Below, piece by piece: positions 11,236-28,007 of a stretch of 34,353 bases of DNA (positions are counted from its first letter, which is position 1; every line of letters starts with the position of its first letter). Under the pieces are notes generated by a model that had not been told where the DNA came from, did not search any database, and saw nothing but the letters and a program-made list of their open reading frames with translations. The position numbers and the translations under genes are program-made. Location: NCBI GenBank assembly GCA_003565555.1, contig PXBH01000026.1:1-34353 (forward strand), in the 5' to 3' direction. Source of the stretch: Cryomorphaceae bacterium. GTDB lineage: Bacteria; Bacteroidota; Bacteroidia; Flavobacteriales_D; Cryomorphaceae.

Positions 11236-11239
11236 GGAT

Positions 11240-13462
11240 TTATTCGATGATTTTAAAATGCGCATGACGGTCGGCCCTGCTGTCGCCGCCTACCCAGAGA
11301 TCAAAATCTCCGGGCTCGACCACGCGTTTGTTCTCCGCATTGTAGAAAGCCAGATCGTCTGCGTGCAGGGTAAATGTCAGTGTTTCGGTTTGGCCCGGGT
11401 CGAGCCATATTTTTTTAAATCCTTTCAGCTCCCTCACCGGACGCGTAATGCTTCCGAAGCGATCGCGGATGTAGAGCTGCGCCGTTTCGGCTCCGCGGCG
11501 CTCGCCCGTATTGGTAAGGTCAATGTAGATTTCAATGCTTTCATCCGCTTTAATTTCGTGGGCCGACAAGCGCACATCACCGTAGTGGAAACGGGTGTAA
11601 GAGAGACCGTACCCGAAAGGGTAGAGGGGTTCGAAGCCTACATCCATGTGAAAGGAGGTATTGCCCACAGAGGTCTGAGGCGCGCGCTGAGGAATGTTGT
11701 CTATATAGGTGAAGGAGTCATGCGTGGCGGGTTTGCCCGACATGCGTTGGTTGTAGTAGATCGGAATTTGCCCGACGTGCTTCGGGAAGGTCACGGGAAG
11801 TTTGCCGGAAGGCGGCGCATCGCCGAAAATGATATCGGCTATCGCGGGCCCGCCCATGGTGCCCGGGTGCCAGGCGTAAAGCATCGCATTGGTGTAGTGT
11901 CCGGTCTGCTCAATGGTGAGCGGCCTGCCCGCCATGATGACCAAGACGGTTGTTTTACCGAGCTTGGATATTTTCGCGAGCAGCTCGTTTTGCGCTCCAG
12001 GCAAATTGATGTCCGCCCGGCAGTGCGCTTCTCCGCTCAGGATAGCCTCCTCGCCCATAAACATGATCACGGTTTCACATTTGGCCGCGATGTCAAGCGC
12101 TTCCGCAAATCCTTCATGACTGCGGCTCCGAGAGTTGCTCAGTCCTTTCGCGAAATGAAGGTTAGCTTTTCCTTTCAAGCGCTCCCGTATGGCTTGAAGC
12201 GGGGTTCGGCACCAGGCCTCCTTCCCGTCAAAAGTCCAAGTACCCATTTGCTCGTGCGCATCATCGGCCATGGGCCCTATGATCGCTACGTTTTGCAGAT
12301 TGTCAGGATTGAGTGGCAGTACGTTGTAATCGTTTTTCAGGAGTACAATGCTTTCGCGGGCCGCATCCTCCGCTATGTCCAGATGCTCGGGATTTCCCTT
12401 TTCGGGAAAATGCACGGGATCCGTGTAGGGGTGGTCGAAGAGGCCGAGTTCGAATTTGACACGAAGGATGTTTGCCGTGCATTCATCGATCATCGCTTCG
12501 GAAATTTTTCCTTCCTCGGTGAGGGCCGCAAGGTTGTAGAGATAAGTTTGGCTGGCCATTTCCATATCGACGCCCGCCGCTACGGAAGCGCGGGCGGCTT
12601 CTTTCTCGCTTTCAGAGTAGCCGTGGGTGATGAGTTGGATCACTGAATCCCAGTCGCTGACTACGAATCCTTTGAAGCCCCATTCCTCCCGAAGTACCGT
12701 GCGGTTGAGATAGGCATGCCCCGTTGCGGGAACCCCGTTAATGTCGCTGAATGCTGTCATAAAGGTTGCCACGCCGGCATCTACGGCCGCTTTGAAAGGC
12801 GGCAGCGCGATATTTCGCAGTTCGCTTTCGGAAATGTTCACGTAAGCATAGTCCTTTCCGGCTTCGGAGTATCCGTAACCGGCAAAGTGTTTTGCGCAAG
12901 CGGCAAGGCTGTCGCGATCGGAGAGATTCTTTCCCTGAAAACCTTCGATCATGGCTGCGCCGACTACGGAGGTAAGGTAAGGGTCTTCTCCCGGCGATTC
13001 TGCGATTCGTCCCCAGCGGGGATCACGGGTCACATCGATCATGGGTGCAAAAGTCCAATGAACGCCGGCCGATCGACCCTCTACTGCGGCCATTCGGGCA
13101 CCCTTTCTGATCAAATCGGGATTCCAAGTGGCAGCCTGTCCGAGCGGAATAGGAAGCATGGTCTGAAATCCGTGGATAATGTCCCGGCCTATGATGACGG
13201 GAATGCCCAGTCTGCTTTCCTCCATCGCAACGCGTTGTATTTCATTGAGCGTTGCCATATCCGTCTCGTTGAGCACAGAACCTACCTTGCCTTCGCGCAC
13301 CGCATTGCGCAGACCTTGGGAGATACCGCCCGTTCCCGCTACCTGACACATTTGGCCGATTTTCTCAGCCAAGGTCATTTTCGCCAAGAGCTTCTTGACG
13401 CGTTCACCCACAGGGTTTTTTTTCGTGTGAACAGTTTTTTCAGACGTACGGGAGGTATGCAC
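11240..13462 (-). CDS. GH3 beta-glucosidase, cytoplasmic (BglX-like), GTG start
   Basis: This 740-residue GH3 enzyme has no signal peptide. Motifs are KMTLAEKIGQM (28-38), IGRDIIHG (91-98), RDPRWGRIAESPGEDP (146-161), KHFAGYG with EAGKDY (191-205), and the nucleophile in VVSDWDS (Asp270). The second domain carries MGEEAILSGEA, and the C-terminal fibronectin-III-like domain starts around FGYGLSYTRFHYGD and ends near the C-terminus. No ATG is available before codon 29, which is already inside the conserved KMTL motif, so a GTG at 13462 (or GTG codon 18, at 13411) must start the protein. It probably hydrolyses imported cello-, laminari- or gentio-type oligosaccharides. It begins the tight GH3-MFS-GH16-GH3-GH3 run; a hairpin (13509-13545) lies in the 119-bp leader. 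Confidence 0.92.
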   Translation of the reverse strand: MHTSRTSEKTVHTKKNPVGERVKKLLAKMTLAEKIGQMCQVAGTGGISQGLRNAVREGKVGSVLNETDMATLNEIQRVAMEESRLGIPVIIGRDIIHGFQTMLPIPLGQAATWNPDLIRKGARMAAVEGRSAGVHWTFAPMIDVTRDPRWGRIAESPGEDPYLTSVVGAAMIEGFQGKNLSDRDSLAACAKHFAGYGYSEAGKDYAYVNISESELRNIALPPFKAAVDAGVATFMTAFSDINGVPATGHAYLNRTVLREEWGFKGFVVSDWDSVIQLITHGYSESEKEAARASVAAGVDMEMASQTYLYNLAALTEEGKISEAMIDECTANILRVKFELGLFDHPYTDPVHFPEKGNPEHLDIAEDAARESIVLLKNDYNVLPLNPDNLQNVAIIGPMADDAHEQMGTWTFDGKEAWCRTPLQAIRERLKGKANLHFAKGLSNSRSRSHEGFAEALDIAAKCETVIMFMGEEAILSGEAHCRADINLPGAQNELLAKISKLGKTTVLVIMAGRPLTIEQTGHYTNAMLYAWHPGTMGGPAIADIIFGDAPPSGKLPVTFPKHVGQIPIYYNQRMSGKPATHDSFTYIDNIPQRAPQTSVGNTSFHMDVGFEPLYPFGYGLSYTRFHYGDVRLSAHEIKADESIEIYIDLTNTGERRGAETAQLYIRDRFGSITRPVRELKGFKKIWLDPGQTETLTFTLHADDLAFYNAENKRVVEPGDFDLWVGGDSRADRHAHFKIIE

Positions 13463-13581: not shown

Positions 13582-14907
13582 TTACCTGTTCAGGATTACT
13601 TTGCCTGAAGCTGTTTCACCGTTTACGGTAAAGGTGTAGAAGTACAGACCGTTGGTCAATCCGCCCGGGTTCCACACGTAGCGGTTCAGTCCGGCAGACT
13701 GAAACCCGAGGTTCTTCTGTTCGATCATTTTTCCGGTCAGGTCAAAAATCGACAGCTGAATGTCCGCTCCGTTCACAAGGTCGTATTCGAAGGTAGTAGG
13801 CCCTGCGGAAGGGTTCGGGTACACATTGAATGTACCTACGTTTTCGAGGTTGTCAACGCTCACTGTTTGGTCGAGGACGAAGTTGTCAAAGAAGTACTCA
13901 TCTGAGGTGTTGTTTCCCGGGTCGAAGAGGACCACGAATTGCTCGATGTCGTCGGCACCGGCCACGGGACTCGCGTCGTAAGTAAGGGTTTCCCAAGCAC
14001 TGCTTGAGGAGGTTTCGGCGCTCATTTCCAAGATCACGTCACCTGCTGCATTTTGAAGAGAAACGATCACGGTGGTAGGTGCATTCGGATCCCACACATC
14101 AAGTTGCATCGAGGCATCGGGAGCGATATCAATTCCCTGCGGGAAGGTACCGATGAGTACATCGTTCTCTTCGCCTCCGTTGCGGGTGTAAGTAGCCACA
14201 TGGCTCGATTCATTGCCGCTCATATCGGGATTGGGAATGCGTCGGAAGTTGATCCCCGAGTGCGAGAAAATGTAATTCACATTTTGATTGCACTCAAAAT
14301 CGTTCAAAATGAGCGGATCGGGTGTCACGCCTTCACAGGGCGGGTTGGCGAGCTCCGGCCCGTTGAGGTTGTCGAAGTAGTAAGTATCGCCGTTGTTCGA
14401 ATTCGGGTCGAAGAGAATAACGAGTTGATTCAGAATACTCGGTGAAACATTTCCGTCGGGGGTTGCGGCCAGAGTGAAGGTCAAGGTTTCCCATTGTTCC
14501 CCGACGGTGGTGGTGGCCAGATATTCACTGTGGCGTCCTGTCGGGTAGTTGTCGGGCTGTGCCAGATTGCTGTTTTCCAAAGTGATCTGAACGGTTTTAC
14601 CGGGAGCGGGGCTCCATACGTCCATGGTTATGGTTTTGGCCCCCGTGGCGTAATCGGTTACGTTGTCCATCACGGCATTCATCACGATGACATCAAAGGT
14701 TTCAGCCGCATTGCGCACATATTGCGCGGCCACTTGGCTGGTGTTTGCGTCGGCCTGATCAGGGTTTTCATTGTATGGAATAAAGACTCCGGAAATAAAG
14801 CCGTAATTGGCTATGCGCGTATTTTCGAAGTTGTCCCAAATCTGTTGGGCGTCGGCTGCAGCAGCGGTGAAGCCTACTGCGGCAATTAGGGTGTAGATTT
14901 TTTTCAT
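13582..14907 (-). CDS. T9SS-sorted protein with two jelly-roll domains, putative glycan-binding
   Basis: This 441-residue secreted protein has a signal peptide (1-20, ADA-QQ). It carries two jelly-roll domains at ~22-185 (TMDVWSPAPGKTVQITLEN, WETLTFTL, TYYFDNLNGPE) and ~199-345 (QLDVWDP, WETLTYD, EYFFDNFVLD). A T9SS type A sorting domain follows at ~358-441 (FNVYPNPSAG, FDLTGKM, LTNGLYFYTF, GKVILNR). The domains share the aromatic DN/DD end strand with the large jelly-roll proteins at the other end of the cluster. No catalytic motif is seen. It follows the GH16 lipoprotein gene by 30 bp, so both are probably one transcript. A role as a surface beta-glucan-binding protein helping the adjacent GH16 is inferred from position and fold pattern only. 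Confidence 0.85.
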   Translation of the reverse strand: MKKIYTLIAAVGFTAAAADAQQIWDNFENTRIANYGFISGVFIPYNENPDQADANTSQVAAQYVRNAAETFDVIVMNAVMDNVTDYATGAKTITMDVWSPAPGKTVQITLENSNLAQPDNYPTGRHSEYLATTTVGEQWETLTFTLAATPDGNVSPSILNQLVILFDPNSNNGDTYYFDNLNGPELANPPCEGVTPDPLILNDFECNQNVNYIFSHSGINFRRIPNPDMSGNESSHVATYTRNGGEENDVLIGTFPQGIDIAPDASMQLDVWDPNAPTTVIVSLQNAAGDVILEMSAETSSSSAWETLTYDASPVAGADDIEQFVVLFDPGNNTSDEYFFDNFVLDQTVSVDNLENVGTFNVYPNPSAGPTTFEYDLVNGADIQLSIFDLTGKMIEQKNLGFQSAGLNRYVWNPGGLTNGLYFYTFTVNGETASGKVILNR

Positions 14908-14937: not shown

Positions 14938-15792
14938 TTATTCGACTTGATAGACGCGGACGTAGTCCACCTCCATTGTTTGGGGAAATTGAGTGGTTCC
15001 GTCGGGATTTCCGGGAAGGTTGCCGCCGACAGCCACATTCAATATGATGTGAAAAAATTGGTCAAAGGGCCATGTAGAAGGAAGGGTGGTGGAGCGGTTA
15101 TTGGGCACCCCCACATCTTCACCGTCCACTTGAAAGAGGATGCAATCTTCTACCCAAATAGCCGTGTAGGTGTGGAACTCTTTGTAAAAAATGCTGTCTG
15201 TTTTGATGAATCGTTGCTCATTCCACCGGTGGCGATCATGCCCCCAATGAATGGTGCCGAATACCTGATCGTCTTTGTCACCGGTAGCCTCCATGACATC
15301 AATCTCACCGCTTGTGGGCCATATTCCGTAGACGTTCTCCGTGGGCAGCAGCCAAATGGCGGGCCACAAGCCCTGTCCGATCGGCAGCCGTGCCCGCACG
15401 TCTATCTTTCCGTAGCGCCAATCCCCTTTATTTTTTGTGACCAGACGTGCGGAAGTGTATGCGAATTCATCTTCGTAAAGTGGACTTTCCGCTTTCGCCG
15501 TGATGATAAGCTTTCCGTCTTCTACTTTTACATTCTCTTGACGATCAGTGTAATACTGCAATTCATTGTTTCCCCAACCGCAGAGCTCATTTCCCTCTCC
15601 GCGATCGCAGCCGTCTCCGAGATCGAAACTCCATTTGCTCGTATCGAGCGCGTTGCCCTCAAATTCGTCGCCCCATACCAGACGATATTTATAGTCGGCG
15701 GGAAATCGGCAGTCGGATAATTCTTCAGGGGAGTCACATGATGCGACCAAAACAACAAAGAAGAAGTACACTAAAATTCTCGTTCCTTTCAT
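14938..15792 (-). CDS. GH16 endo-1,3-beta-glucanase (laminarinase) lipoprotein
   Basis: This compact 284-residue GH16 enzyme is nearly all catalytic domain. The lipoprotein signal ends LVASC (lipid Cys19) and is followed by DSPEELSD, an acidic stretch that in Bacteroidota often accompanies export of lipoproteins to the cell surface. Catalytic-domain landmarks are LVWGDEFEGNALD, GWGNNELQYYT, RYGKIDVRARLP, GLWPAIWLLP and the active site GEIDVMEATG (nucleophile Glu163, Asp165, acid/base Glu168), with the closing strand MEVDYVRVYQ. The pattern matches GH16 laminarinases. A cysteine pair near WSFDLGDGC...LCGWG may form a disulfide. It is the first gene of the minus-strand cluster, divergent from the regulator, with a TAAATTTG -7 box about 39 bp upstream of the ATG, and so is likely the most directly regulated enzyme. 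Confidence 0.94.
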   Translation of the reverse strand: MKGTRILVYFFFVVLVASCDSPEELSDCRFPADYKYRLVWGDEFEGNALDTSKWSFDLGDGCDRGEGNELCGWGNNELQYYTDRQENVKVEDGKLIITAKAESPLYEDEFAYTSARLVTKNKGDWRYGKIDVRARLPIGQGLWPAIWLLPTENVYGIWPTSGEIDVMEATGDKDDQVFGTIHWGHDRHRWNEQRFIKTDSIFYKEFHTYTAIWVEDCILFQVDGEDVGVPNNRSTTLPSTWPFDQFFHIILNVAVGGNLPGNPDGTTQFPQTMEVDYVRVYQVE

Positions 15793-15958: not shown

Positions 15959-16045
15959 TTTAAGAGAATTGTTTAAGGTTCAGACGCTCGTGCAATAAAC
16001 TACAGCATTTTGGGTTTTTTGGTTTTTTGGGTGCATCTTAGGAGC

Positions 16046-18946
16046 GTGAAAAAGATATTGTCCGTTTTACAATTAGCCCTGCTTGTGCTGCCCGCTTTCT
16101 CGCCCCTGAGTGCGCAAATGGCTTACCGGGGACTGCCCGTAACGGAAAACATCAGCAGAACCGATTACCGCGCGGGTACACAAAACTGGGCGATCTTACA
16201 AGATGAGCGCGGCTTTGTTTATGTGGGAAACAACAAGGGGCTGCTGGAATTCGACGGTGCAGGTACGCGTCTTTACCCTCTTCCTAACCGAACCATCGTA
16301 CGAAGCTTAAAGCTCGGAGAAGAAAACATAATCTTTACAGGAGGTCAGAATGAATTCGGGTTTTTCGAAAAATCTCCTTCGGGATCAATGGCATTTCATT
16401 CCCTGAAGCACCTTTTGCCTGCCGAAGCACCTGCCTTCGATGACGTGTGGAAAATATTCGACCGCGGTTCGGACGTTTTGTTTTGTACGGAAAAAGCCGT
16501 TTTTGCCGTGAGTGATTCGTCTGCAAGGGTAATTCTTCCGCTCGGAGACCGGTTTGAAAATTTCTTTTTTCTTCGCGGCCGTGCCTATTTTCAGGATTCC
16601 GATAAAGGATTGCTGGTTCTGAATAACGGCAATCTCGATCTTGTCAGCGACAGACCGGAGTTGAGCGACGACCGCATCGCCTCCTTGCTGCCCCACGGGG
16701 CAGGAGATCTGCTGATCATTACCGCCGCACAGGGCAATTTTTTGCTCGGGGAAGACGGAACCTTTCGGCCGAGATATACGGAGCTTTCTGAGTTTTGTGC
16801 GCGCCACAGGGCCTACAGCGCGATAAGAACTTCTGAGGGAAATTATGCCGTTGGCACCGCGGGCGACGGCCTCGCAGTAGCTGATTCTTCGGGACGGATA
16901 CTGAAACGGTACAACCGTGAAACGAATTTACAAAACAATACAGTGCTTGCCTTGGCCGAGGACCGTCAAGGGAATATTTGGCTCGGATTGGACAACGGGA
17001 TTTCCGTGATCGCCGAAAGGTCGCCTTTCGGCTTTTTGGGCGCGGAGTCCGGTGTGAAAGGCACGGGTTACACTTCTCTGGTTATTGACGACAGATTGCT
17101 CTTGGGCACCAATCAGGGCCTCTACGAAGAAAATGCGCCCATCGATGCGGGCACTCCGCTTTTCTCTCCCGTTTTTCCCGTCTCGGGGCAGATATGGAGC
17201 ATTGATCATTGGGGTGACTACGTGATTATTTCCGGACACGAATGCGCTTATCGATGGCATCGAGGTGTTACTGAACGGATAGAAGGAATGCGCGGAGTGT
17301 GGAAGACCTCTCCGTTGAACGGCAAAAGTGACCGTTTGTTGGCGGGTACGTACAACGGTCTCTATTTACTGGTTCAAGATCATGAACGGAATGCAGGTTT
17401 TCGCGCCGAACGTGTAGAGGGAAGCCCCGCGGAATCTGCGCGAATTTTCGAACAGGACGGTGAGGGTTACGTGTGGGTATCGCATGCATATAAAGGACTT
17501 TACAGGATTGCCCTCTCAGAAGACGGCAGGTCTGTAGACCGGATTAAAATGTACGGTCCGGAGCAGGGATTGCCCGATGAGCTCTTTGTCAATGTGGCCA
17601 AACTGCGATCTGAAATTGTGGTGACCGGGCCCTTGGGCATTTACCGCTACAATCGGATTGCTGACCGTTTCGAACACCATTCCGACCTCGAGGAGTTGAT
17701 CGGACATGGCCGAAATGTACACCGCCTCATCGAGGATGAAGCGGGCAGAATTTGGTTTTCCGTAGATGAGGAGTTCGGCGCTGTGGTCTACGGCGGGGAA
17801 GAACCGGAAAAACTTTATTTTAACCAGCTGCATCCCCTGCTGGTAGACGGATTCGAGCATTTACAGTCCTTGCCTGACGGAAAGATACTGGTCGGTGCTG
17901 AAGAGGGGTTCATTCTGTTTAATCCCGATGCGGCTCCCGGCACAGGTTTTTCTTTTCCGCTTTACCTGCGCGCCCATATCTCCGCAGGTGATGCCGATTC
18001 TACGGTATTTGCCGGGAACGATGTCACCGGCGGAATCGAGGTACCGGAATTTCCATACAAGCTCAATGATTTCCGCTTTGAATTTACCGCACCGTTTTTC
18101 GGTGAGGGTGACAAACTCAAGTACAGTTATCAGCTCATCGGATTTGATCAGGCCCCGTCTGCCTTCACGGATGAAAACAAAAAGGAATACTCCTACCTCC
18201 CTCAGGGAAAGTACACCTTCCGGGTTACCGCCCTCAATCCTTACGGTGTGGAAAGTGACCCTGTAGCATACACCTTTCGCATACTTCCGCCTTGGTATGC
18301 TTCTTTATATGCCAAAGTGGCCTACGCCCTGATTGTGGTGGTGGGCGTTGTATTTCTTTTCCTCGCGGTCTCGCGCAGGGAGAAAAAGAGAACAGAAGCC
18401 TTTAAGCTTGAGCAAACGGAAAAGCTCAAGCGAAAAGAAGATGAGTACCGCAAAGAGGTGGAGCGCTCAGAGCTGGAGCTCACAGAGTTGAGAAATGAAA
18501 AATTGCGTTCTGACATCAACCACAAGACCAGTCAGCTCGCTTCGGCCACCATGCACCTCGTGCAGAAGACTGAAATTTTGCGGAAGCTCAAAGATGATTT
18601 GAAAAAATTGCGGAGCGAAGCACCTGACGGTCTGAGCCGAAAAATAACCAATTTGGAGCGCACCATAGAGCGAGACATTCAGTTGGACAACAACTGGGAG
18701 CAATTTGAAGTCTACTTTGATCAGGTACACGAGAATTTTTTCAAACGCCTGCGGCAGAAATTTCCCGAACTCACGCCCAAAGACCAAAAACTCTGCGCTT
18801 ACCTCCGCATGAATTTGACCACAAAGGAAATCGCTCCCTTACTCAATATTTCGGTCAGGGGGGTGGAGATCAGCCGCTATCGCCTCAGAAAGAAATTGGA
18901 TATCGACAGTGATGTCAACCTCACCGAATTCATCACGGAGGTGTAA
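16046..18946 (+). CDS. Transmembrane one-component regulator: Reg_prop propeller, Y_Y_Y, LuxR-type HTH
   Basis: This 966-residue sensor and transcription factor probably controls the flanking glycan genes. A signal peptide (~1-23, LSA-Q) is followed by a long periplasmic beta-propeller region (~30-635) with Reg_prop-like repeats (QNWAILQDERGFVYVGNN, EDRQGNIWLGLDNGI, EDEAGRIWFSVDEE). A Y_Y_Y domain lies at ~638-750 (KYSYQLIGFD, YSYLPQGKYTFRV), one membrane helix at ~757-777, a charged coiled coil at ~779-890, and a C-terminal HTH at ~905-960 (LTPKDQKLCAYLRM, TTKEIAPLLNISVRGVE, RYRLRKKL). No histidine-kinase or receiver domain is present, so DNA binding is coupled straight to the membrane sensor. 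The frame is open from a TTG at 16010; GTG at 16046 gives a typical MKKI-type signal peptide and follows AGGAG, so it is preferred (GTG 16031 is possible). It converges on the GH16 gene downstream with an 11-bp gap. Confidence 0.92.
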   Translation: MKKILSVLQLALLVLPAFSPLSAQMAYRGLPVTENISRTDYRAGTQNWAILQDERGFVYVGNNKGLLEFDGAGTRLYPLPNRTIVRSLKLGEENIIFTGGQNEFGFFEKSPSGSMAFHSLKHLLPAEAPAFDDVWKIFDRGSDVLFCTEKAVFAVSDSSARVILPLGDRFENFFFLRGRAYFQDSDKGLLVLNNGNLDLVSDRPELSDDRIASLLPHGAGDLLIITAAQGNFLLGEDGTFRPRYTELSEFCARHRAYSAIRTSEGNYAVGTAGDGLAVADSSGRILKRYNRETNLQNNTVLALAEDRQGNIWLGLDNGISVIAERSPFGFLGAESGVKGTGYTSLVIDDRLLLGTNQGLYEENAPIDAGTPLFSPVFPVSGQIWSIDHWGDYVIISGHECAYRWHRGVTERIEGMRGVWKTSPLNGKSDRLLAGTYNGLYLLVQDHERNAGFRAERVEGSPAESARIFEQDGEGYVWVSHAYKGLYRIALSEDGRSVDRIKMYGPEQGLPDELFVNVAKLRSEIVVTGPLGIYRYNRIADRFEHHSDLEELIGHGRNVHRLIEDEAGRIWFSVDEEFGAVVYGGEEPEKLYFNQLHPLLVDGFEHLQSLPDGKILVGAEEGFILFNPDAAPGTGFSFPLYLRAHISAGDADSTVFAGNDVTGGIEVPEFPYKLNDFRFEFTAPFFGEGDKLKYSYQLIGFDQAPSAFTDENKKEYSYLPQGKYTFRVTALNPYGVESDPVAYTFRILPPWYASLYAKVAYALIVVVGVVFLFLAVSRREKKRTEAFKLEQTEKLKRKEDEYRKEVERSELELTELRNEKLRSDINHKTSQLASATMHLVQKTEILRKLKDDLKKLRSEAPDGLSRKITNLERTIERDIQLDNNWEQFEVYFDQVHENFFKRLRQKFPELTPKDQKLCAYLRMNLTTKEIAPLLNISVRGVEISRYRLRKKLDIDSDVNLTEFITEV

Positions 18947-18957
18947 ACCCGCGGTGA

Positions 18958-20307
18958 TTATTGTTTCATGAACTTGAAGCGACGTTCCTCACCTCCCGCG
19001 GTAAGCACACCGAGGAAATATGTTCCCGGCGAAAGATTCGAAACGTGCAGGGAAACCTGACTCCCGGGAGCTTTTGCCGACCGGACCTGTCGCCCGTTTA
19101 CATCGAAGATTGCGATGCTTCTTTCGGCAATGCTTTCGCCGAATTCGACATTGAGAACGGCCGTGGTCGGCACGGGAAAAAGTCGAATTTCCGGACGGTC
19201 GTCTGTTCCGGCACTGAGCCCGCTCTTTTCAAAAATTCTGATGTAGTCCACCTCCATCACTGCGGGAAACGCGGTGGTGAAGTCGGGGCTTCCGGGCCAG
19301 TTTCCTCCCACTGCCACATTGAGCAGCAGGAAAAAGGGTTGGGTGAAGATGGGCTGGGTATTGTCATTCAACGAAAAGGGAAAATGAAAATAGGGTTGAT
19401 CATTGATTAGATAGGTCACGCCCTCTTCATCCCAATCGGCACCGTATACATTCCATTCTTCCGCCTCAAGGGGGGCGGTTTTCGTTTCGTAGGTGTGTCC
19501 GAAACCGTTGAACCAGTGTATGGCCGAGTTGGTCAGGGGTTCATTGTTGACATGCTCCATCACATCCATTTCCCCGCAATGGGGCCAGCCTACTTCTTCA
19601 AAATTTGCTCCCATCATCCAGAATGCGGGCCAGATTCCCTGTCCGAGCGGAACCTTGATCCGGGCTTCGATTTTTCCGTAAAGGAATTCCATCTTGCCCA
19701 GGGTGCGTATCCTGGCCGAGGTGTAATCCGCTCCCCCCACATTTTCTTCCCGCGCAGTGATTTTTAGTGTTCCGTTGCTCACTTCGAGGTTATTCGGCGA
19801 TGAGGTGTACATCTGGAGTTCGTTGTTTCCCCAGCCGTGGCTGCCGAACTCATGCGACCAGGTGTCGGTGTCGAGCGCGTTGCCCTCAAATTCCTCAGAC
19901 CAGTTCAACACCCAGATGTCGTCATCGGGAACGAGGCAGTCGGAGCAGAGCCCCCAACACACCATATCAAGCACCATATCACCCGACACATTCAGGGTGC
20001 GGTTGTGAAAAGTGCCGTCGGTGGCGATGCATTGGGTTTCATAGCTCAATTCTTCCTCACCTGCCCAGTTGTCGAAAGAGAACTTGTACTGTATGGGGCC
20101 GTCGGGAATATCGACGGTCACTTCCCAGATATTGTCACCGTCGGGATCGCTCATGGCGTTGCAGTTTCCGCACCAACCGTTGAACGTGCCGTTCACTTCC
20201 GGGGTCTCGAAGCCTGCGAAGCCCGCCATATTCAACTTAAAAGTGACATTTCCGGCATGCGCTGAAAACAAGAAGGCAAAGGAGATCAAAAAGGCGGGGA
20301 ATTTCAT
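18958..20307 (-). CDS. GH16 beta-glucanase with N-terminal FNGW domain and T9SS sorting domain
   Basis: This 449-residue secreted enzyme has a signal peptide at 1-18 (SAHA-GN). Residues ~20-124 are a small beta domain with TPEVNGTFNGWCGNC, DGDNIWEVTVDIPDG and IQYKFSFDNW, a layout like the CBM48/CBM20 starch-binding fold but Cys-rich; its ligand is unknown. The GH16 domain spans ~130-365: WSEEFEGNALD, HGWGNNELQMYT, LYGKIEARIKVP, GIWPAFWMMG, active site GEMDVMEH (Glu246, Asp248, Glu251), VDYIRIFE. Residues ~375-449 are a T9SS type A domain (RLFPVPTT, FDVNGRQV, LSPGTYFLGV, RRFKFMKQ). An upstream TTG would extend the frame to 20367, overlapping the GH-A gene, but ATG at 20307 opens directly onto the signal peptide and is chosen. 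It lies 56 bp downstream of the GH-A gene and is probably co-transcribed with it. Confidence 0.92.
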   Translation of the reverse strand: MKFPAFLISFAFLFSAHAGNVTFKLNMAGFAGFETPEVNGTFNGWCGNCNAMSDPDGDNIWEVTVDIPDGPIQYKFSFDNWAGEEELSYETQCIATDGTFHNRTLNVSGDMVLDMVCWGLCSDCLVPDDDIWVLNWSEEFEGNALDTDTWSHEFGSHGWGNNELQMYTSSPNNLEVSNGTLKITAREENVGGADYTSARIRTLGKMEFLYGKIEARIKVPLGQGIWPAFWMMGANFEEVGWPHCGEMDVMEHVNNEPLTNSAIHWFNGFGHTYETKTAPLEAEEWNVYGADWDEEGVTYLINDQPYFHFPFSLNDNTQPIFTQPFFLLLNVAVGGNWPGSPDFTTAFPAVMEVDYIRIFEKSGLSAGTDDRPEIRLFPVPTTAVLNVEFGESIAERSIAIFDVNGRQVRSAKAPGSQVSLHVSNLSPGTYFLGVLTAGGEERRFKFMKQ

Positions 20308-20363
20308 CAATGTAAATGGGATGCTTAATTGTGAAAGGAAAAAGGCAGACCTGACCGGAGGGT

Positions 20364-21674
20364 TCAAAGTTCGCCGCTGACGAAAAACGGGATGTTCGCC
20401 ACCGCAGCCTTTCCCTGGCCATCACCCACATAGCAAAAGAGGCGGTAAGGACCTTCTTTCCGGGGCGTACGGAACATCAGGATGTGCGGATCTCCGGTCT
20501 CTCGCCTTCTGAAATCGACCGACTCAGGCCGTGACTCCGCATCTCCTCCCGACTTGATATCGGTACTTTCGGGAAGGATTTCCCACTTGTAAGTGATCGG
20601 ATCTCCGTCGGGATCTTCGGCCTCGACCATGGCAGTGATGTAGGTGCTCGGCTGCACATATACACTTTCGTAGCGCCCTTTGCCCTCAATGGAAATGTCA
20701 TGCAGGGTAGGGGCCCTGTTTTCGGGATAGGATCCCGTCCACACGTACTGCAGCACATCGGTCACTTCGGTCTCCCGCCCGTCTTCCAAGAATACGCCAT
20801 ACCAGGTCGGGGTGGTTTCTTGCTTTTGTCCCCAAAGGAACACGTATGAGCCGATGCACATTTCCGGATCGCTTGCGATGCCTTGTTGGTAGCGTTTTTT
20901 ATACGAGGCCGCTTTCTCGCGGCTTGTCTGTTCAACGGGAGCACCCCATTCTGTCTTGGGCACTTCCCAGTGGCCGCTGGGCCCCCACTCGGCGATGATG
21001 TAGGGCTTTTCCCAGCCGTAGCTTCGTATCTCTTTGTCGATGCCGATCAGCCCCGCGTAAGTATTGATGCCGAGAATGTCGATGTGGGGAGCCCGCTCCT
21101 GAATAAGCTGCACTTCGGCCACGTCAATTCCCGCGGTCACGGTCATGGTGGGGTGGTTGCCGTCCACTTCATGCACCATCTTGGCGATGTCGTTGATGGC
21201 ATTCCATACCTTGAAGTCGGAATAAAACAAATCGTTTTCATTGCCGATTCCCCATAAGAGTATGGCCGGGTGGTCTTTGTATTTTTTTACTACTTCCGTA
21301 AAAGCTTCCAGCTGAGCTTTCACGGCTTTCCCGTCATTGTAGTCAAATCCCTGTCTTTCCACGCCTACCCAAAGGCCGAATACCACGGACAGGCCCTTTT
21401 CGTGCGCTTTATCCAGTACATTAATTGCCTCTTCGGCACCCCAAGTTCGTATGGAATTTGCGCCGTATTCGACGGCTTTGTCCAGTCTTGTTTGTCCGCC
21501 GACGCCTATAATGTAGTAGGGCTCACCTCCGCGGTAGAGCTGCCAGTTGCCCGGTTCACCGCGCAATTCGGTTTTAATCGGTCCTTCGAATTGTGTGCCC
21601 GACTTGTGCTGACTGAAAAGTGCGGTTGAAAAAAGAATGACTGCGGTAAAGAGAAGGGGCTGAAGAAGACGCAT
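20364..21674 (-). CDS. Secreted clan GH-A glycosidase, family unassigned, with C-terminal Ig-like domain
   Basis: This 436-residue protein has a signal peptide (~1-21). A TIM-barrel-like domain (~30-325) resembles the catalytic barrel of GH2 enzymes but lacks the GH2 jelly-roll domains. Key segments are NSIRTWGAEEA (73-83), HPAILLWGIGNEND (135-148; acid/base candidate Glu146), MTVTAGIDVAE, ILGINTYAG and KPYIIAEWGPSGHWE (223-237; nucleophile candidate Glu229). The order of the two glutamates, on strands 4 and 7, is that of clan GH-A. Residues ~335-434 look like an Ig/PKD-type beta domain (EAEDPDGDPITYKWEI). GH158 and other GH-A endo-beta-1,3-glucanases are possible relatives, but I cannot assign it. 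It has its own -7 box at 21699-21706 and is followed by the T9SS GH16 gene, so activity on the same beta-glucan is likely. Confidence 0.82.
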   Translation of the reverse strand: MRLLQPLLFTAVILFSTALFSQHKSGTQFEGPIKTELRGEPGNWQLYRGGEPYYIIGVGGQTRLDKAVEYGANSIRTWGAEEAINVLDKAHEKGLSVVFGLWVGVERQGFDYNDGKAVKAQLEAFTEVVKKYKDHPAILLWGIGNENDLFYSDFKVWNAINDIAKMVHEVDGNHPTMTVTAGIDVAEVQLIQERAPHIDILGINTYAGLIGIDKEIRSYGWEKPYIIAEWGPSGHWEVPKTEWGAPVEQTSREKAASYKKRYQQGIASDPEMCIGSYVFLWGQKQETTPTWYGVFLEDGRETEVTDVLQYVWTGSYPENRAPTLHDISIEGKGRYESVYVQPSTYITAMVEAEDPDGDPITYKWEILPESTDIKSGGDAESRPESVDFRRRETGDPHILMFRTPRKEGPYRLFCYVGDGQGKAAVANIPFFVSGEL

Positions 21675-21874: not shown

Positions 21875-23950
21875 ATGCAAATGTTTACAGTTCCGACAAA
21901 ATTGATCCGCGATCTGTGCAATAAGCGCAATATTCTTCTTTGCGCTGTGTTCGCGTTTATATGTGTCGGAAGTACATTTACGGCCGTCGGTCAGACTCCT
22001 GACACGGCGATTGCCGAGGGCGACACAACGGATACCGCACCGTCTCCGCTCGACTGGAACAATTTCCACACCATCGCGGGTATCGCATACGATGAAGGTT
22101 TCGTGAGGGAAAAAATGCAGCGCCCTGACCAAAAACTTACCGTTTTCGGTTATTATCGCTTCTTCGGTTACGGCCGAAATATGACGACGCCTTTTCCCAA
22201 TCTTGCGCCTTTTGAAAAAGCTTATTCCGTGGGTGACGGATACCGCGAGCCCATGCTTTCACTGAATGTGGTGGGGCGTCCCACACCCAACACGACGTTC
22301 GGTTCAGAACTTTACATGTTTACCCCGTATCTGGGCACTTATTTGGATGGCAACGACTTTACCACCAACCTCGGGATCAATTTTTACGGAAATTTCCGTA
22401 CGGACTACGGTAATTTCGGTATTCGGGCGGGAGGTATACACTGGTACAACCTCAGTTCATTTACCATCGGTCTTTTTCAGGTTTTGGACCGCTTTACGAT
22501 TTTTGACCGGACGCCCTGGGAAGGTATTGACAACACGGTCAGGTACGATAACTACTTTAATACAGGAGTAGCGGCCGCAGGTGATTTGCGCTGGAACAAT
22601 CAAGCCTTCCAAGGCTTGATTCTCAACGGCGGTTCTTTGCCCTTGGACTTTGCTTTTGACATTTTCTGGGGAAGGACCCAACCGGCTTCGGGGCTTCCCG
22701 GCGGTCTTGAAGACCCCTTCTTTATGCCTCAAAACCTCGCCGGGGGTCAGGTGCCCAATTACCTCGGCATGGCGGGAACGGCGCGAAGCCTTCCGAGCAT
22801 CGTGTCGGGGGGTAAGCTCGAAAAAACATTCGGCGCTGCGAAGGATCAGAAAATCGGGTACAACATGTTCAGAAGTGCTTCGGTGCTTGACAGCATTCAG
22901 CAAACACAGCGGGTGTATCAGATTCACACCATGACCCTCGACCTGAACGTGGCCGATATCAACATCACGGGCGAACTCGGAGCGGGAGCGTACCGCAGCC
23001 CTACATATCAAGAGCAGTGGGGTGAGGCGCTGATGCTGCGTTTCTATCTCCCGGAGAAGTACACGGGTGTTCCGATGGATTTTCAGGTGTATCAAATCAG
23101 CCCCGATTTTTTCAATCAGAACGGAGAGATTTTCACCAACGGCAACCCCGCTATCGTAAACGATATCGGTTTGATACCGGGCGCGCTCGGTGCGGGGGGG
23201 CAAATTTCGCAAGTCAACCAATTGGTGCACAACCGCAGAGGAGTGAATGCCAATGCCCGTTTCGAAAAGGGAATCTTCAAATTTAACGTGGGCTGGGGCA
23301 TCGCCCATGAAATGGAAGCCCTTTCGAGCTCGCTGACCTATCTGCACAGGGTGAACGGACTGGCGCTCTCTCGGGTGTACAATCCTTTTCCGGAAGGAGC
23401 CGTGGCACCTACGCGTTTCGGACCCTACAACAGGATGATTTCCTTCTTCAGAGGCGTTTCGGAAGTGGTCAATGTTACCGATGTCGATCCCGCTACGGGT
23501 GAAGCGCTGTCACGGAAGTGGTACAACAGCGTCGATCTCCAGGCGAAACTGAGCACCGAATTGTTGGGAAAAAGCTTCTATGTCTTCTACCTCGGTACCA
23601 TCGGCTCTGCCGAATCTCAGGCCTCCCCGATACCGAGCATCGGTGAGAACACCTACCTGTTCACCCAAGCCCACGAATTTGATATCTACTACGAGATTTT
23701 TCCGAAGTTTTTGTTTACCGGCTATTTCGGTGTAGAAACTGCGCGCGGCGGGAGATTCACAGATTTCGGTGAAAACCAAACGCCCCGCGACCAGTTCGGA
23801 ACGGGCATCGGTATCGGCTTCGACTGGGCCGTGGCCGAAAACGCGGGCATCTATGTGAGGCACCGATGGATGGACTACCGCGACCGCAGCTTCATTGAGG
23901 ATAGATATGCGGGTCGCGAAATCACGATTGAATTAAAAACCTTTTTCTGA
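21875..23950 (+). CDS. Predicted outer-membrane beta-barrel protein, first of a pair
   Basis: This 691-residue protein is not assigned to a family. A signal peptide with a long basic N-region (hydrophobic core NILLCAVFAFICVG, cleavage near AVGQ) is followed by a body rich in alternating aromatic/polar strands separated by Gly/Asn/Asp turns, such as KLTVFGYYRFFGYG, FGSELYMFTPYLGT, NFGIRAGGIHWYN and ITGELGAGAY. It ends in phenylalanine (ITIELKTFF), the usual signature for BAM-inserted barrels. There is no N-terminal plug, TonB box or carboxypeptidase-like domain, so it is not SusC. It starts a four-gene operon (gaps 6, 17 and 5 bp) with a second barrel and two lipoproteins. A porin-like or export/assembly role for glycan is inferred from context only. 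Confidence 0.82.
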   Translation: MQMFTVPTKLIRDLCNKRNILLCAVFAFICVGSTFTAVGQTPDTAIAEGDTTDTAPSPLDWNNFHTIAGIAYDEGFVREKMQRPDQKLTVFGYYRFFGYGRNMTTPFPNLAPFEKAYSVGDGYREPMLSLNVVGRPTPNTTFGSELYMFTPYLGTYLDGNDFTTNLGINFYGNFRTDYGNFGIRAGGIHWYNLSSFTIGLFQVLDRFTIFDRTPWEGIDNTVRYDNYFNTGVAAAGDLRWNNQAFQGLILNGGSLPLDFAFDIFWGRTQPASGLPGGLEDPFFMPQNLAGGQVPNYLGMAGTARSLPSIVSGGKLEKTFGAAKDQKIGYNMFRSASVLDSIQQTQRVYQIHTMTLDLNVADINITGELGAGAYRSPTYQEQWGEALMLRFYLPEKYTGVPMDFQVYQISPDFFNQNGEIFTNGNPAIVNDIGLIPGALGAGGQISQVNQLVHNRRGVNANARFEKGIFKFNVGWGIAHEMEALSSSLTYLHRVNGLALSRVYNPFPEGAVAPTRFGPYNRMISFFRGVSEVVNVTDVDPATGEALSRKWYNSVDLQAKLSTELLGKSFYVFYLGTIGSAESQASPIPSIGENTYLFTQAHEFDIYYEIFPKFLFTGYFGVETARGGRFTDFGENQTPRDQFGTGIGIGFDWAVAENAGIYVRHRWMDYRDRSFIEDRYAGREITIELKTFF

Positions 23951-23956
23951 TGCGGG

Positions 23957-25747
23957 ATGAAAAATTTTAGATACATACTGTTTTTTGCCTTGCTCACCCT
24001 CTTCGGTGGTCTGCCCTTCGGCAGCTACGCCCAGGACGGGTCTGCACTGCCCACGGAGAAGCCCAAGGAGGAAAGGCCCGCGGTGCGTTTCAACGGCCTG
24101 GGCCGTACCATCCTTCAGGATACCCAAATCGACGGAGACGCCCTCGCGGGAGATACCGTTACCTCGCGTCGACTCACCGACGGAGAATTCCTGCTGGACT
24201 TGGAAATCAACGCCCAACCGAACGAGAAGACCGAAGTCGGGAGTATCCTGCGTCTGCGAAATGAATTCGGAGGATTTTTCGGTGCGGGGATGTCCGTGGA
24301 AGTGCGGGAGCTCTGGGCCCGAGGGATTATCGCCGACGCACTTGAGTACCATGTGGGTGACATGGATGTCGCCATGACGCCTTACACTTTCTACTTTTTT
24401 GACGAAGAGGGGAGTGTCAATTTGCCGGAAGCTTTTCGCGCTCAGCGAGAGGTGATCTACTACGAGCAATTTTACCACGAGGGCAACACCCGACGGGTGC
24501 AGGGAGCGAAATTGGATTTCGGGCTCGGATTTACTAAAATTCTTCGCGAGGCTGATTTCAACGCCTTTATATCAAGGGTGCGCGGCACGGATTTTCTGAT
24601 TACTCCCACTCGATTTACAAGCGGCGGTCAAGCTTCATTTACCACGCGTAAGTTGTATTCGGATTGGAATACCAAAGCAGACTTCGGCTTTAACCTTGTG
24701 CACACGTTTGACGACCTCATGTCGGGAGATGCCAACCGAGGTATTCGCAATACTGTCGGAACTTTTAACTGGAACGTTCAAATTTTCAAGGATGAAGATT
24801 ATGCTTTGAATTTCCTCGGTGAAACGGGGATGTCTCGCGTAATTGATAAAGAAGACAGTACTTTTTTCGACCGGGATGATGTATTCCTCGATGTGGGCCT
24901 GAAGTTCTTGTGGAAGAAACCCAATGTGTCTGTGACCGCTTCTTTTGTCGATGTCGGACCCGATTATTTCAGCATGGCCGCCCAGAGCCGCCGCATCGAT
25001 TTGCGAAACGAACGCGCCCTCTATGACCGCATCGGCAACGAAGCCGCGCGGCGTCCGCTCTCTATGTTTGACATCACCCGCGACAGAGCCCTGTACACCT
25101 TCGAACTGAGTGATGTGCTCATGCCCTACGATCCTCGGTTCAGCAATACCATGCCCTACGGACTCGCCACGCCGAACCGCCGCGGTTTTCGATTTACGGC
25201 CGAACAAGGCGCCGATCAAGATCTCGTGAACGCCCGCATTGATGCCGCAGCCATGACGGAAATACGCGGACAGGGTACCGAAGAACTCAAGGACTTCCTC
25301 CTTTTGCGCGGAAGCGCCAACCTGAACGTGAACAAACTCATTGATTGGGACAGCCGTCAACGCATCACCTTGGGATATCAATATGAGTCCACACAGCGCG
25401 GAGGACTTCCCGTGGAGCAGATCGACTTGGTGTCAAACCTTCTGGAGGTAGGTGTGGAAACGGAGCTTTTCGACGGCTTTGATATCTTACTCGGGATGAA
25501 GTTTCTGGATGCCAGAGGTAACGAGTTTATCCCGACAATTGATCAATTCAATGAGGTGCGGGATTTTCCCACGCGATTTGAAGCCGACGACCGAGAACAG
25601 CTCTACGCTGCGGGTTTTCGCTACCGATTCAAAGAAGGTGTGTATCTCACGATACAATATCACGGACTTAACTCAAGGGTGCAACGGCCCGAGATCGATA
25701 ATTTTAACTTGAATCAGGTATTCGTCATCTACAACATGATGTTCTGA
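23957..25747 (+). CDS. Predicted outer-membrane beta-barrel protein, second of a pair
   Basis: This 596-residue protein has a signal peptide (1-25, SYA-QD). Beta-strand patterning runs through the length: FLLDLEINAQPNEKTEVGSI, VEVRELWARGII, YHVGDMDVAMTPY, DVFLDVGLKFLWKK, RITLGYQYEST, YLTIQYHGL. The C-terminal residue is Phe (FVIYNMMF), as in outer-membrane barrels. The early segment (RELWARG followed by a strand with GDMDV) recalls porins of the alginate-export type, but similarity is too weak to name a family. It follows the first barrel gene by 6 bp, so co-expression and possibly a shared complex are expected. No TonB plug is seen. The gene is followed after 17 bp by a lipoprotein gene. Confidence 0.82.
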   Translation: MKNFRYILFFALLTLFGGLPFGSYAQDGSALPTEKPKEERPAVRFNGLGRTILQDTQIDGDALAGDTVTSRRLTDGEFLLDLEINAQPNEKTEVGSILRLRNEFGGFFGAGMSVEVRELWARGIIADALEYHVGDMDVAMTPYTFYFFDEEGSVNLPEAFRAQREVIYYEQFYHEGNTRRVQGAKLDFGLGFTKILREADFNAFISRVRGTDFLITPTRFTSGGQASFTTRKLYSDWNTKADFGFNLVHTFDDLMSGDANRGIRNTVGTFNWNVQIFKDEDYALNFLGETGMSRVIDKEDSTFFDRDDVFLDVGLKFLWKKPNVSVTASFVDVGPDYFSMAAQSRRIDLRNERALYDRIGNEAARRPLSMFDITRDRALYTFELSDVLMPYDPRFSNTMPYGLATPNRRGFRFTAEQGADQDLVNARIDAAAMTEIRGQGTEELKDFLLLRGSANLNVNKLIDWDSRQRITLGYQYESTQRGGLPVEQIDLVSNLLEVGVETELFDGFDILLGMKFLDARGNEFIPTIDQFNEVRDFPTRFEADDREQLYAAGFRYRFKEGVYLTIQYHGLNSRVQRPEIDNFNLNQVFVIYNMMF

Positions 25748-25764
25748 TAACACCTTTTGAAGAT

Positions 25765-26769
25765 ATGAAACAGTCATTCTATTTCACGCTCACGCTGCTC
25801 ATCGCCGTGCTTTTTGCCGCTTGCGATCACGATGATACCCCTGACGGACCGAGTATCGAAGACCGTTTCGGCCCGTTTGAGCTCAGAGATTCACTGCAAG
25901 TTTCAGCTGAGTCAGTGGATTTCTCGGAAGGGGAATCAATATTTTTCACCGCTGAATTCAATATTAACTTGGACTGGCGTATTGAGATTACCGGAACCGA
26001 AAGCGGCGCATTCCAAAGGATAGACGGTTTCGGTACCGAATTAAATGAAGATAATTCAAGGTGGGCGGGAAGGACAACCGCATTGCCTTTTTTCAAACAA
26101 GAAACATGTCAGGTGGTGTTCACCCTGCCGGGCAGAGATGATTACACGGATACCCTCTTTGTCGAAGTGCTCGGCTCCCGAAACTACCCGGGCACTTTAT
26201 TCGCCGATTTTGAAGAGCCGGCAAGCAACCACATCGAGCTGGGTAACTTTGAATTTGAACTCAACCTGCCTCAGACCGGACGAACAGAGGATATCACCGC
26301 TGCAGAAGGAGATTTCTACTACAGCATGAGGGGTACAGACGATGTGGTGCCCAACTTCTTTGTCGGTCTGATCAACATCAGTTCGACCATTACCGGGGAG
26401 ACCTATATTCAGTTTCCCACCACGGTTCCTTCTCAGTTGTACTTCAACTTCTTTGTTTTGCACGACAACAGTCCGCATACCATCATGGTGATTCAGTTTG
26501 CCTATGATACCAATGACAACGGACAATTCGACGACGGTATCGATGAAACATTTGCCGTCGAGGGTGACTTCCCGCTTGCGCACACGGGATGGCGGCATTT
26601 CAGCCATCCGATGAGTGCAACGGGCATTTCACAGGAAAAACTCGAAAAAATTGTAGCCATTCGGGTGCTGCTAATTTCGGATAACAATGCCCAGCCTACT
26701 CCTCCGTTGGAAGTAGGGTTCGGTATCGATTACATGATTTTCACGCAAGGCGCACCGCTACAACTTTGA
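25765..26769 (+). CDS. Predicted surface lipoprotein, unknown function
   Basis: This 334-residue lipoprotein has the lipobox LFAAC (Cys20), followed by DHDDTPDG. The acidic cluster just after the cysteine resembles the lipoprotein surface-export signal of Bacteroidota. Residues ~35-140 look like an Ig-like beta domain (VSAESVDFSEGESIFFTAEF, CQVVFTLPGRDDYTDTLFVEVLG). Residues ~146-330 look like a jelly-roll domain (LFADFEEPA, TYIQFPT, HTIMVIQFAYD, GFGIDYMIFTQ). No catalytic motif is visible. It could be a surface glycan-binding protein working with the two barrels encoded upstream and the jelly-roll lipoprotein 5 bp downstream; this is inference from architecture and operon position. Confidence 0.8.
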   Translation: MKQSFYFTLTLLIAVLFAACDHDDTPDGPSIEDRFGPFELRDSLQVSAESVDFSEGESIFFTAEFNINLDWRIEITGTESGAFQRIDGFGTELNEDNSRWAGRTTALPFFKQETCQVVFTLPGRDDYTDTLFVEVLGSRNYPGTLFADFEEPASNHIELGNFEFELNLPQTGRTEDITAAEGDFYYSMRGTDDVVPNFFVGLINISSTITGETYIQFPTTVPSQLYFNFFVLHDNSPHTIMVIQFAYDTNDNGQFDDGIDETFAVEGDFPLAHTGWRHFSHPMSATGISQEKLEKIVAIRVLLISDNNAQPTPPLEVGFGIDYMIFTQGAPLQL

Positions 26770-26774
26770 TCGGC

Positions 26775-28007
26775 ATGAAAAGGACCGCGAAACATAAGTT
26801 TATGAGAAGTTTGCTGCCCATGGCGGCCGCGGGAATCTTGTTCTCCGTCATTACTTCATGCGTACAGTTTAAAACCGCCTCGCTCTACGACGGTGTAATG
26901 GAGCGTCCCAAACCGCCCAAGCCTGACAAGATCGATCGGGTGGTGGAGCCCGTCATTTTCGTCGATTCCGACCGTGACGTATGGGGCATGGAAACGAATG
27001 AATGCCAGGTGGCTTCAATTAGCAATGATATCGCCTACGAAGGCCCGGCTTCCATCAAAGTTAAATGGGACCGAGGAGCTGAAGGCTGCACCTGGGCCGG
27101 GTTCGGAATAGGATGGGAAGGCTGGGCCGGCAAGGACCTTTCGGCAATCATGGACCACGCGGCCATCTCGTTCTACGTGCGCACCATCGAAGGCCGCGCT
27201 TTCGGATTGCCCTTCGTACTCACCCTCGAAGACTACAGCGGGGGTTTGGGTTTTTGCTATACCGCAAATAAGTATTTTGAGCGCACCGCCCTCGACGAAG
27301 AGTGGCAGCAAGTCATTGTCCCGCTCGGCGATTTCGATATTGAGACTGAAAACCTCGATGTCACCAATATCAAGCAATTGCAAATCGAGCTTCAGCAAAG
27401 CGGAGGGGTATATGTAGACAATATGAAACTCATGTTCTACGAGGCGCCTCCTTTAGAACCCTGGCTCGAAGAGGAAGACCTCCCCGACCCGCTCGATTTC
27501 CCTATCACGGTATTTGAAGATGAGTTTATCAACGGCCACGGTTGGGGTATGATTAAGGACGATTGTCAGGATTTCTCTGTGGTTGATAAGGAAGACGGAA
27601 CGGGTAAAATGATCCGGGCAGTCTATGACAAGACCTCGGAAGAATGCACCTTGGTCGAATTCGGGGTGAGCTGGAACAAATGGCATCCTACCGATATTAC
27701 CCCCGCCATGGAGTACGGCGCGGTTGTATTTGACATTAAAGTGCCTACAGGCCCCGGGGCCGATGACCTGAATTTGCGCGTCGGCTTTGAGGACTACGAC
27801 AGGGCTGTAACCTTCGTAAAACTGCAATCTTCTCAGATTACTACGGGGGACTATCTCATCGGTTGGGCCACGGTTCGCATTCCCTTCTCATCCTTTCCGG
27901 AAGACGATGCCGACCTGAAAAGGGTAAAGCACATGTTCTTCGGTCCTGAGGGAAAAGGAGAATTCCTGATTGACAATATCCGCCTGGAGCGTATCGAGGC
28001 CAATTGA
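26775..28007 (+). CDS. Lipoprotein with two jelly-roll (CBM11-like) domains
   Basis: This 410-residue lipoprotein has the lipobox VITSC (Cys29). After a Pro/Lys linker come two related domains at ~58-222 and ~244-407. Each has a Trp/Gly start (RDVWGMETNEC; GHGWGMIKDDC), a cysteine-containing strand before an FG(I/V)(G/S)W turn, an (F/V)E- or LEDY strand, and a late (V/I)DN(M/I)(K/R)L strand. This resembles the CBM11-type beta-jelly roll of glucan-binding modules (inference from pattern). The matched cysteines in both domains suggest disulfides. A TTG at 26766 would extend the frame by three codons and overlap the previous gene; ATG at 26775, 5 nt after its stop, is preferred. Last gene of the barrel/lipoprotein operon; likely a surface glycan-binding protein. 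Confidence 0.83.
   Translation: MKRTAKHKFMRSLLPMAAAGILFSVITSCVQFKTASLYDGVMERPKPPKPDKIDRVVEPVIFVDSDRDVWGMETNECQVASISNDIAYEGPASIKVKWDRGAEGCTWAGFGIGWEGWAGKDLSAIMDHAAISFYVRTIEGRAFGLPFVLTLEDYSGGLGFCYTANKYFERTALDEEWQQVIVPLGDFDIETENLDVTNIKQLQIELQQSGGVYVDNMKLMFYEAPPLEPWLEEEDLPDPLDFPITVFEDEFINGHGWGMIKDDCQDFSVVDKEDGTGKMIRAVYDKTSEECTLVEFGVSWNKWHPTDITPAMEYGAVVFDIKVPTGPGADDLNLRVGFEDYDRAVTFVKLQSSQITTGDYLIGWATVRIPFSSFPEDDADLKRVKHMFFGPEGKGEFLIDNIRLERIEAN

Follow-up and report, generated by a model that had tools for sequence, protein, structure and literature searches.

The DNA analysed here, a contig of 34,353 nucleotides from a Cryomorphaceae bacterium (PXBH01000026.1, our contig C58, taken whole and called the window below; the assembly comprises 3.72 Mb in 237 contigs and is 97% complete), carries a beta-1,3-glucan locus and, beside it, a cassette of four genes coding for two predicted beta-barrels (B1 and B2) and two lipoproteins (LP1 and LP2). 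All four genes lie on the same strand, separated by 6, 17 and 5 bp, and their products are designated here by their counterparts in the chu_1276-1280 cluster of Cytophaga hutchinsonii:

21875..23950, forward strand: B1, first barrel, homologue at the CHU_1276 position; 691 aa, ending in KTFF, about 22-24 predicted strands, without plug
23957..25747, forward strand: B2, second barrel, homologue at the CHU_1277 position; 596 aa, ending in NMMF, 22 predicted strands, without plug
25765..26769, forward strand: LP1, lipoprotein, homologue at the CHU_1278 position; 334 aa, lipobox LFAAC
26775..28007, forward strand: LP2, SGBP-B-like lipoprotein, probable remote relative of the CHU_1279 family; lipobox VITSC

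The LP2 gene was listed with a TTG start at 26766, the ATG at 26775 being more likely. LP2 is made of two domains resembling carbohydrate-binding modules (CBM), with a CBM30 match (2.1e-13) in the first half and a weak match to SGBP_B_XBD in the second. Acidic residues follow the lipobox cysteine in LP1, for which no family was found above cut-off in Pfam or NCBIfam. The two barrels share a C-terminal Phe. Searched against Pfam and NCBIfam, neither has a match to any family with the threshold set as loosely as E 0.5, hence none to Plug, TonB receptor or SusC; an N-terminal plug domain was looked for in both against Pfam at the same threshold and not found. A sequence search of solved structures with B2 and LP2 returned nothing useful, and scans of the DNA for promoters and terminators gave results no better than chance.

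The AlphaFold2 model of B2 (pLDDT 87.5) has 22 strands, with short turns alternating with long loops, as expected for an outer-membrane barrel. Many of the invariant residues of B2 are located in its long extracellular loops (around 139-178 and 334-407). The model of B1 (pLDDT 74.8) is less certain, with about 22-24 strands; strand counts and loop sides were in both cases taken from the secondary-structure strings of the models. In fold searches, the top VIA match was AlgE for B2 (Z 17.4, 316 residues aligned, root-mean-square deviation 5.8), with the OprD/Occ uptake porins within about 1 Z, and FimD for B1 (Z 16.5, 348 aligned, deviation 4.4). Both models also align to the barrels of TonB-dependent transporters (TBDT), mostly from beyond the plug, for example B1 with residues 211-1016 of the SusC BT1762. 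Scores of Z 13-17 are shared by many barrel families (AlgE, OprD/Occ, TBDT barrels, ushers), and because these align comparably the fold alone is silent on import versus export. The initial annotation, made from the sequence, had described a cluster of four genes with gaps of 5-17 bp, two plug-less barrels ending in Phe and two lipoproteins, one of them with two domains, and this description holds in each of its parts.

No SusC or SusD homologs are present among the scanned genes of the window, that is, over the whole contig, in agreement with their reported absence from these 34 kb. The genome harbors two SusC/SusD pairs on other contigs, one beside FecCD/ABC/periplasmic-binding genes (C45) and one beside an asparaginase gene (C65), and neither adjoins glycan enzymes; a pair next to the locus, which would have spoken against the initial annotation, was thus not encountered on this contig, at whose ends the readable sequence stops. 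In relatives of the same family, whose cassettes lie on contigs of 159-666 kb, SusD matches are found on other contigs or are absent. A single Sus-like match, a 76-residue SusC match in locus L243, was identified near 157 cassette loci, and with the PF07980 profile no SusD on a cassette contig comes closer than about 18 kb.

The cassette keeps its gene order and is inherited as a unit. Among 157 loci with distinct B2 sequences, which served for the counts of gene order and neighbours, B1 lies directly 5' of B2 in 146/148, the two exceptions (L066 and L087) having an unassigned open reading frame in its place, and a lipoprotein gene lies directly 3' of B2 in 138/138, an order therefore conserved far beyond chance. 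Pairwise distance matrices are correlated between B1 and B2 (r=0.88), B1 and LP1 (0.87), and B2 and LP1 (0.73).

B2 was identified in 74 of 199 genomes drawn from the order of the window organism (37%), in 50/395 of its class (13%) and in 9/196 of another class of the phylum. Carriers include Cryomorpha ignava (L224), of the same family as the window organism, and gut and rumen Bacteroidales metagenome-assembled genomes (MAGs; L233, L235 and L237), whereas the titles of four others (L202, L205, L252 and L253, MAGs labelled as Bifidobacterium breve, Chryseobacterium gleum and Chitinophaga pinensis) look doubtful for a Bacteroidota cassette. The B2 of a genome from another class (L086, genome G415) is 49-50% identical to those of Cryomorphaceae (the window, L041 and L043) and only about 33% and 32% identical to those of L046 and L047, which belong to the order of the window organism and share 34% and 33% with the window B2. 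This suggests a transfer between classes, a reading based on identities rather than on a dated tree. The gene order of L086 is shared by a MAG from Rhodothermia (L241).

The remainder of the locus comprises three GH3, three GH16 and one GH158 glycoside hydrolase (GH) genes, a sugar porter of the major facilitator superfamily (MFS) and a sensor-regulator; the GH158 and GH16 genes are the only ones in the genome. Reading away from the cassette, the genes are:

20364..21674, reverse strand: GH158 endo-beta-1,3-glucanase, divergent from B1 (matches 9oro, 1.5e-104, and 6pal, 1.4e-73)
18958..20367, reverse strand: GH16 enzyme with a type IX secretion tail
16010..18946, forward strand: Reg_prop/Y_Y_Y/LuxR-HTH sensor-regulator, syntenic in relatives
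14938..15792, reverse strand: GH16 enzyme
13582..14907, reverse strand: type IX-secreted protein, conserved in the locus
11240..13462, reverse strand: GH3 enzyme, probable beta-glucosidase
9628..11265, reverse strand: MFS sugar transporter (inner-membrane uptake step)
8327..9631, reverse strand: GH16 enzyme
6000..8327, reverse strand: GH3 enzyme, probable beta-glucosidase
4084..6003, reverse strand: GH3 enzyme, probable beta-glucosidase

On the other side, 140 bp 3' of the cassette, lies a gene coding for a glycogen synthase of the Glycogen_syn family (PF05693; 28148-29983), followed at 30027-34157 by one for a 1376-aa CotH-kinase protein with a lamin-tail domain and a type IX secretion tail. 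Both were considered as cassette members and dropped, because neither is kept beside the cassette in relatives. The right end of the contig (34242-34353) consists of about four copies of a 25/49-bp tandem repeat (CCCTTCGGCTGCGCTCAGGGCAGCG), which is likely the reason why the assembly ended there.

The association with glycan enzymes extends well beyond this genome. At least one listed glycan enzyme lies within 8.5 kb of the cassette in 91 of the 96 loci where 5 kb or more of sequence is available to either side of B2, versus none of 40 control regions of 19 kb taken elsewhere in cassette-bearing genomes. Part of the reference enzymes had been drawn from cassette loci, a bias in favour of these loci, but the contrast is wide all the same. 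No listed enzyme is present at L089, L142, L199, L208 and L233, the other five loci; a GH65 gene was observed near the cassette of L235. The four genes are therefore not conserved mainly away from glycan enzymes, and the neighbourhood survey supports the link to a glucan locus that had been proposed for the window.

The commonest enzyme set beside the cassette is GH16/GH158/GH3, GH158 being the most constant companion among cassettes of the beta-glucan type. Other sets combine GH18 and NagB (L141, L161), GH97 and GH13 (L139, L165), or GH30, GH43 and GH67 (L194), or include GH9 (L140, L145, L183) or sulfatases with a formylglycine-generating enzyme (L062, L074, L154). GH158 occurs together with sulfatases and the formylglycine-generating enzyme in L062, L074, L075, L079 and L154, which are possibly loci for sulfated beta-1,3-glucan, and three divergent cassettes (B1, B2 and LP1; L099, L100 and L101) are accompanied by sulfatases without GH158. 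Near the chitin-type cassettes L141, L161, L200 and L231, glucosamine-6-phosphate isomerase genes were observed, as well as probable GAPDH and phosphofructokinase genes recognized from their N-termini. One genome may hold up to four cassette types, as in a Bacteroidota MAG from Lac Pavin (JAPLEZ, G724) with beta-glucan, alpha-glucan, cellulose and chitin cassettes (L164-L166, L197). In a FastTree phylogeny of B2, which contains some long branches, sequences sort by enzyme set, with 15 set changes versus 48.7 in shuffles, a test limited to the presence of any label clustering, and the chitin set forms one side of a fully supported branch. Taxonomy alone does not explain this sorting, because paralogues of a single genome fall into different sets.

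The closest described system is the chu_1276-1280 cluster, reported in 2025 as an atypical polysaccharide utilization locus (PUL) for cellulose that lacks SusC/SusD (PMC12016534). CHU_1279 is located in the outer membrane and deletion of its gene leads to loss of growth on cellulose (PMC12016534). According to earlier work as cited in that paper, CHU_1276 and CHU_1277 are, with CHU_1279, outer-membrane proteins that matter for cellulose use in C. hutchinsonii; one of the studies cited attributes, in its title, glucose uptake to an outer membrane protein, identified in the paper as CHU_1276, and earlier work on chu_1280 is also cited (PMC12016534). Our literature search for a general version of the cassette returned, within the library searched, only the C. 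hutchinsonii work, the content on CHU_1276 and CHU_1277 being that given through these citations. As C. hutchinsonii was absent from the 80 loci returned, Cytophaga aurantiaca DSM 3654 (L183) stood in for it. Its gene order is B1, B2, LP1, a 374-aa protein and GH9, and the 374-aa protein has all six aromatic residues of CHU_1279 (PMC12016534) at the same positions (W89, F92, F180, Y253, F256 and F343). The window proteins match their L183 counterparts for B1 (E 2e-41, 26% identity), B2 (E 3e-84, 31%) and LP1 (E 7e-18, 25%; profile 1.6e-38). LP2 showed no sequence or hidden Markov model match to the CHU_1279-like protein of L183, and an hhalign profile-profile comparison with the CHU_1279 family (probability 95.7, E 9.3e-9, 326 columns) points to remote homology.

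Both loci thus combine a barrel-barrel-lipoprotein-lipoprotein order with adjoining enzymes and lack SusC/SusD, with homology by sequence for B1, B2 and LP1 and at the profile level for LP2. With clear homologues in the Cytophaga cellulose cluster for three components, and a remote homologue for the fourth, the system is not wholly new. However, no GH9 was identified among the scanned genes of the window, whose enzymes are GH16, GH3 and GH158, so that it represents the same module type directed to a different substrate class. Identities are only 25-31%, LP2 carries CBM30, and the window locus adds the Reg_prop/LuxR regulator and the MFS porter. Moreover, the cluster has been named only in C. 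hutchinsonii, C. aurantiaca and S. myxococcoides (PMC12016534), whereas the cassette is spread far beyond these three cellulolytic species.

The cassette is probably an outer-membrane module for glycan capture and uptake that is independent of SusC/SusD, of the chu_1276-1279 type, and serving here for a laminarin-like beta-1,3-glucan. GH16 and GH158 would cut the glucan at the cell surface, and LP2, through its CBM-like domains, would together with LP1 retain the products on the outer side of the membrane. Oligosaccharides may then pass B1 and/or B2, large plug-less barrels narrowed by long conserved loops, after which the GH3 enzymes would complete degradation and the MFS porter would import glucose. 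The analysis establishes the genes, their fold class, constant order and co-inheritance, the association with glycan enzymes, the sorting of the B2 tree and the homology to the Cytophaga cluster; transport itself, the identity of the substrate, the work of a channel free of TonB and the formation of a complex are what we infer. The central idea of the initial annotation, an outer-membrane system without SusC/SusD tied to a glucan locus, is in line with the missing adjoining pair and with the enzymes at 91/96 loci. Among the roles it had left open, uptake is favoured over export or an unrelated envelope role, and sensing or scaffolding stays as a rival.

Several points weigh against the uptake reading. 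No direct evidence of transport by the cassette exists in the window organism, and the structure searches with B1 and B2 return generic barrels only. A plug-less barrel this large, with about 22 strands, would be expected to leak if it were not closed by its loops. The distance matrix of GH158 correlates with those of B1 and B2 as well (0.85-0.88), so that co-inheritance concerns the whole locus and is no proof of a complex. In C. hutchinsonii, a binding-dead CHU_1279 still permits growth (PMC12016534), and the lipoprotein of this type may therefore be structural rather than capturing. Finally, SusD showed no anti-correlation with the cassette among genomes of the order (present in 29/46 genomes with the cassette versus 26/46 without), indicating that the cassette is no simple genome-wide substitute for SusC/SusD.

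Uptake could also be energised, with a periplasmic partner so far unrecognised, be it TonB or another, opening one of the barrels. Two barrels per unit and their strict co-inheritance would agree with this, as would the TBDT structure matches reported for CHU_1276 by the C. hutchinsonii authors (PMC12016534) and the alignment of B1 to TBDT barrels, which starts immediately behind their plug; however, neither a plug nor a TonB-box domain was found in two proteins that match no Pfam family, and we regard this variant as unlikely, although it deserves consideration. The behaviour of the binding-dead CHU_1279 makes a sensing or scaffold complex the strongest rival that does not involve transport: barrels and lipoproteins would organise surface enzymes or signal the presence of glycan, while sugars would enter via other porins. 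A regulator gene often adjoins the cassette, but the regulators vary by locus (Reg_prop/LuxR type, NrtR-like, LacI) and the cassette does not, which argues that the latter is not bound to one signalling partner, and the glucose uptake named in the title of the cited CHU_1276 study also speaks for transport. Such a complex appears rather improbable.

Export of a polysaccharide or protein through an AlgE-like or usher-like exit seems very improbable. The top matches of the two barrels, AlgE and FimD, and the glycogen synthase gene downstream would suit it, but the OprD/Occ uptake porins score almost as well as AlgE for B2, the glycogen synthase gene has no counterpart beside the cassettes of relatives, and the neighbours at the 91 loci are degradative or import genes (GH, sulfatase, NagB, MFS/SSF importers).

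Compared with canonical SusC/SusD PULs, such as those for laminarin in Flavobacteriia and for beta-1,3-glucan in Bacteroides, the system for which we favour an uptake role has the same enzymes (GH16, GH3, GH158), a regulator, an SGBP-B-like lipoprotein and paralogues sorted by substrate, but two plug-less barrels in place of the TonB-dependent transporter SusC and of SusD. PULs are sought via susC and susD, and loci lacking both are filed as plain clusters of carbohydrate-active enzymes (CAZymes; PMC10108472). The window, with its CAZymes, MFS porter and lack of susCD, falls by this rule among the clusters of marine metagenomics, but the rule misses the conserved outer-membrane module in the locus. 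The cassette thus provides a marker by which a parallel kind of PUL can be searched for, and raises the question of how barrels so large work without a TonB plug. It also ties the puzzle of Cytophaga, the uptake of cellulose products without SusC/SusD, to a module equally present beside chitinases, amylases, xylan enzymes and laminarinases. We judge it evenly balanced whether outer-membrane glycan import in the Bacteroidota, the class to which Rhodothermia belong among them, follows a second general paradigm besides SusC/SusD, namely a co-inherited machine of two barrels and surface lipoproteins without TonB plug, diversified by paralogy toward beta-1,3-glucan, cellulose, chitin, alpha-glucan, xylan and sulfated glycans. 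That the cassette recurs in the Bacteroidota next to enzymes acting on cellulose, chitin, starch, xylan or sulfated glycans suggests an overlooked second type of PUL.

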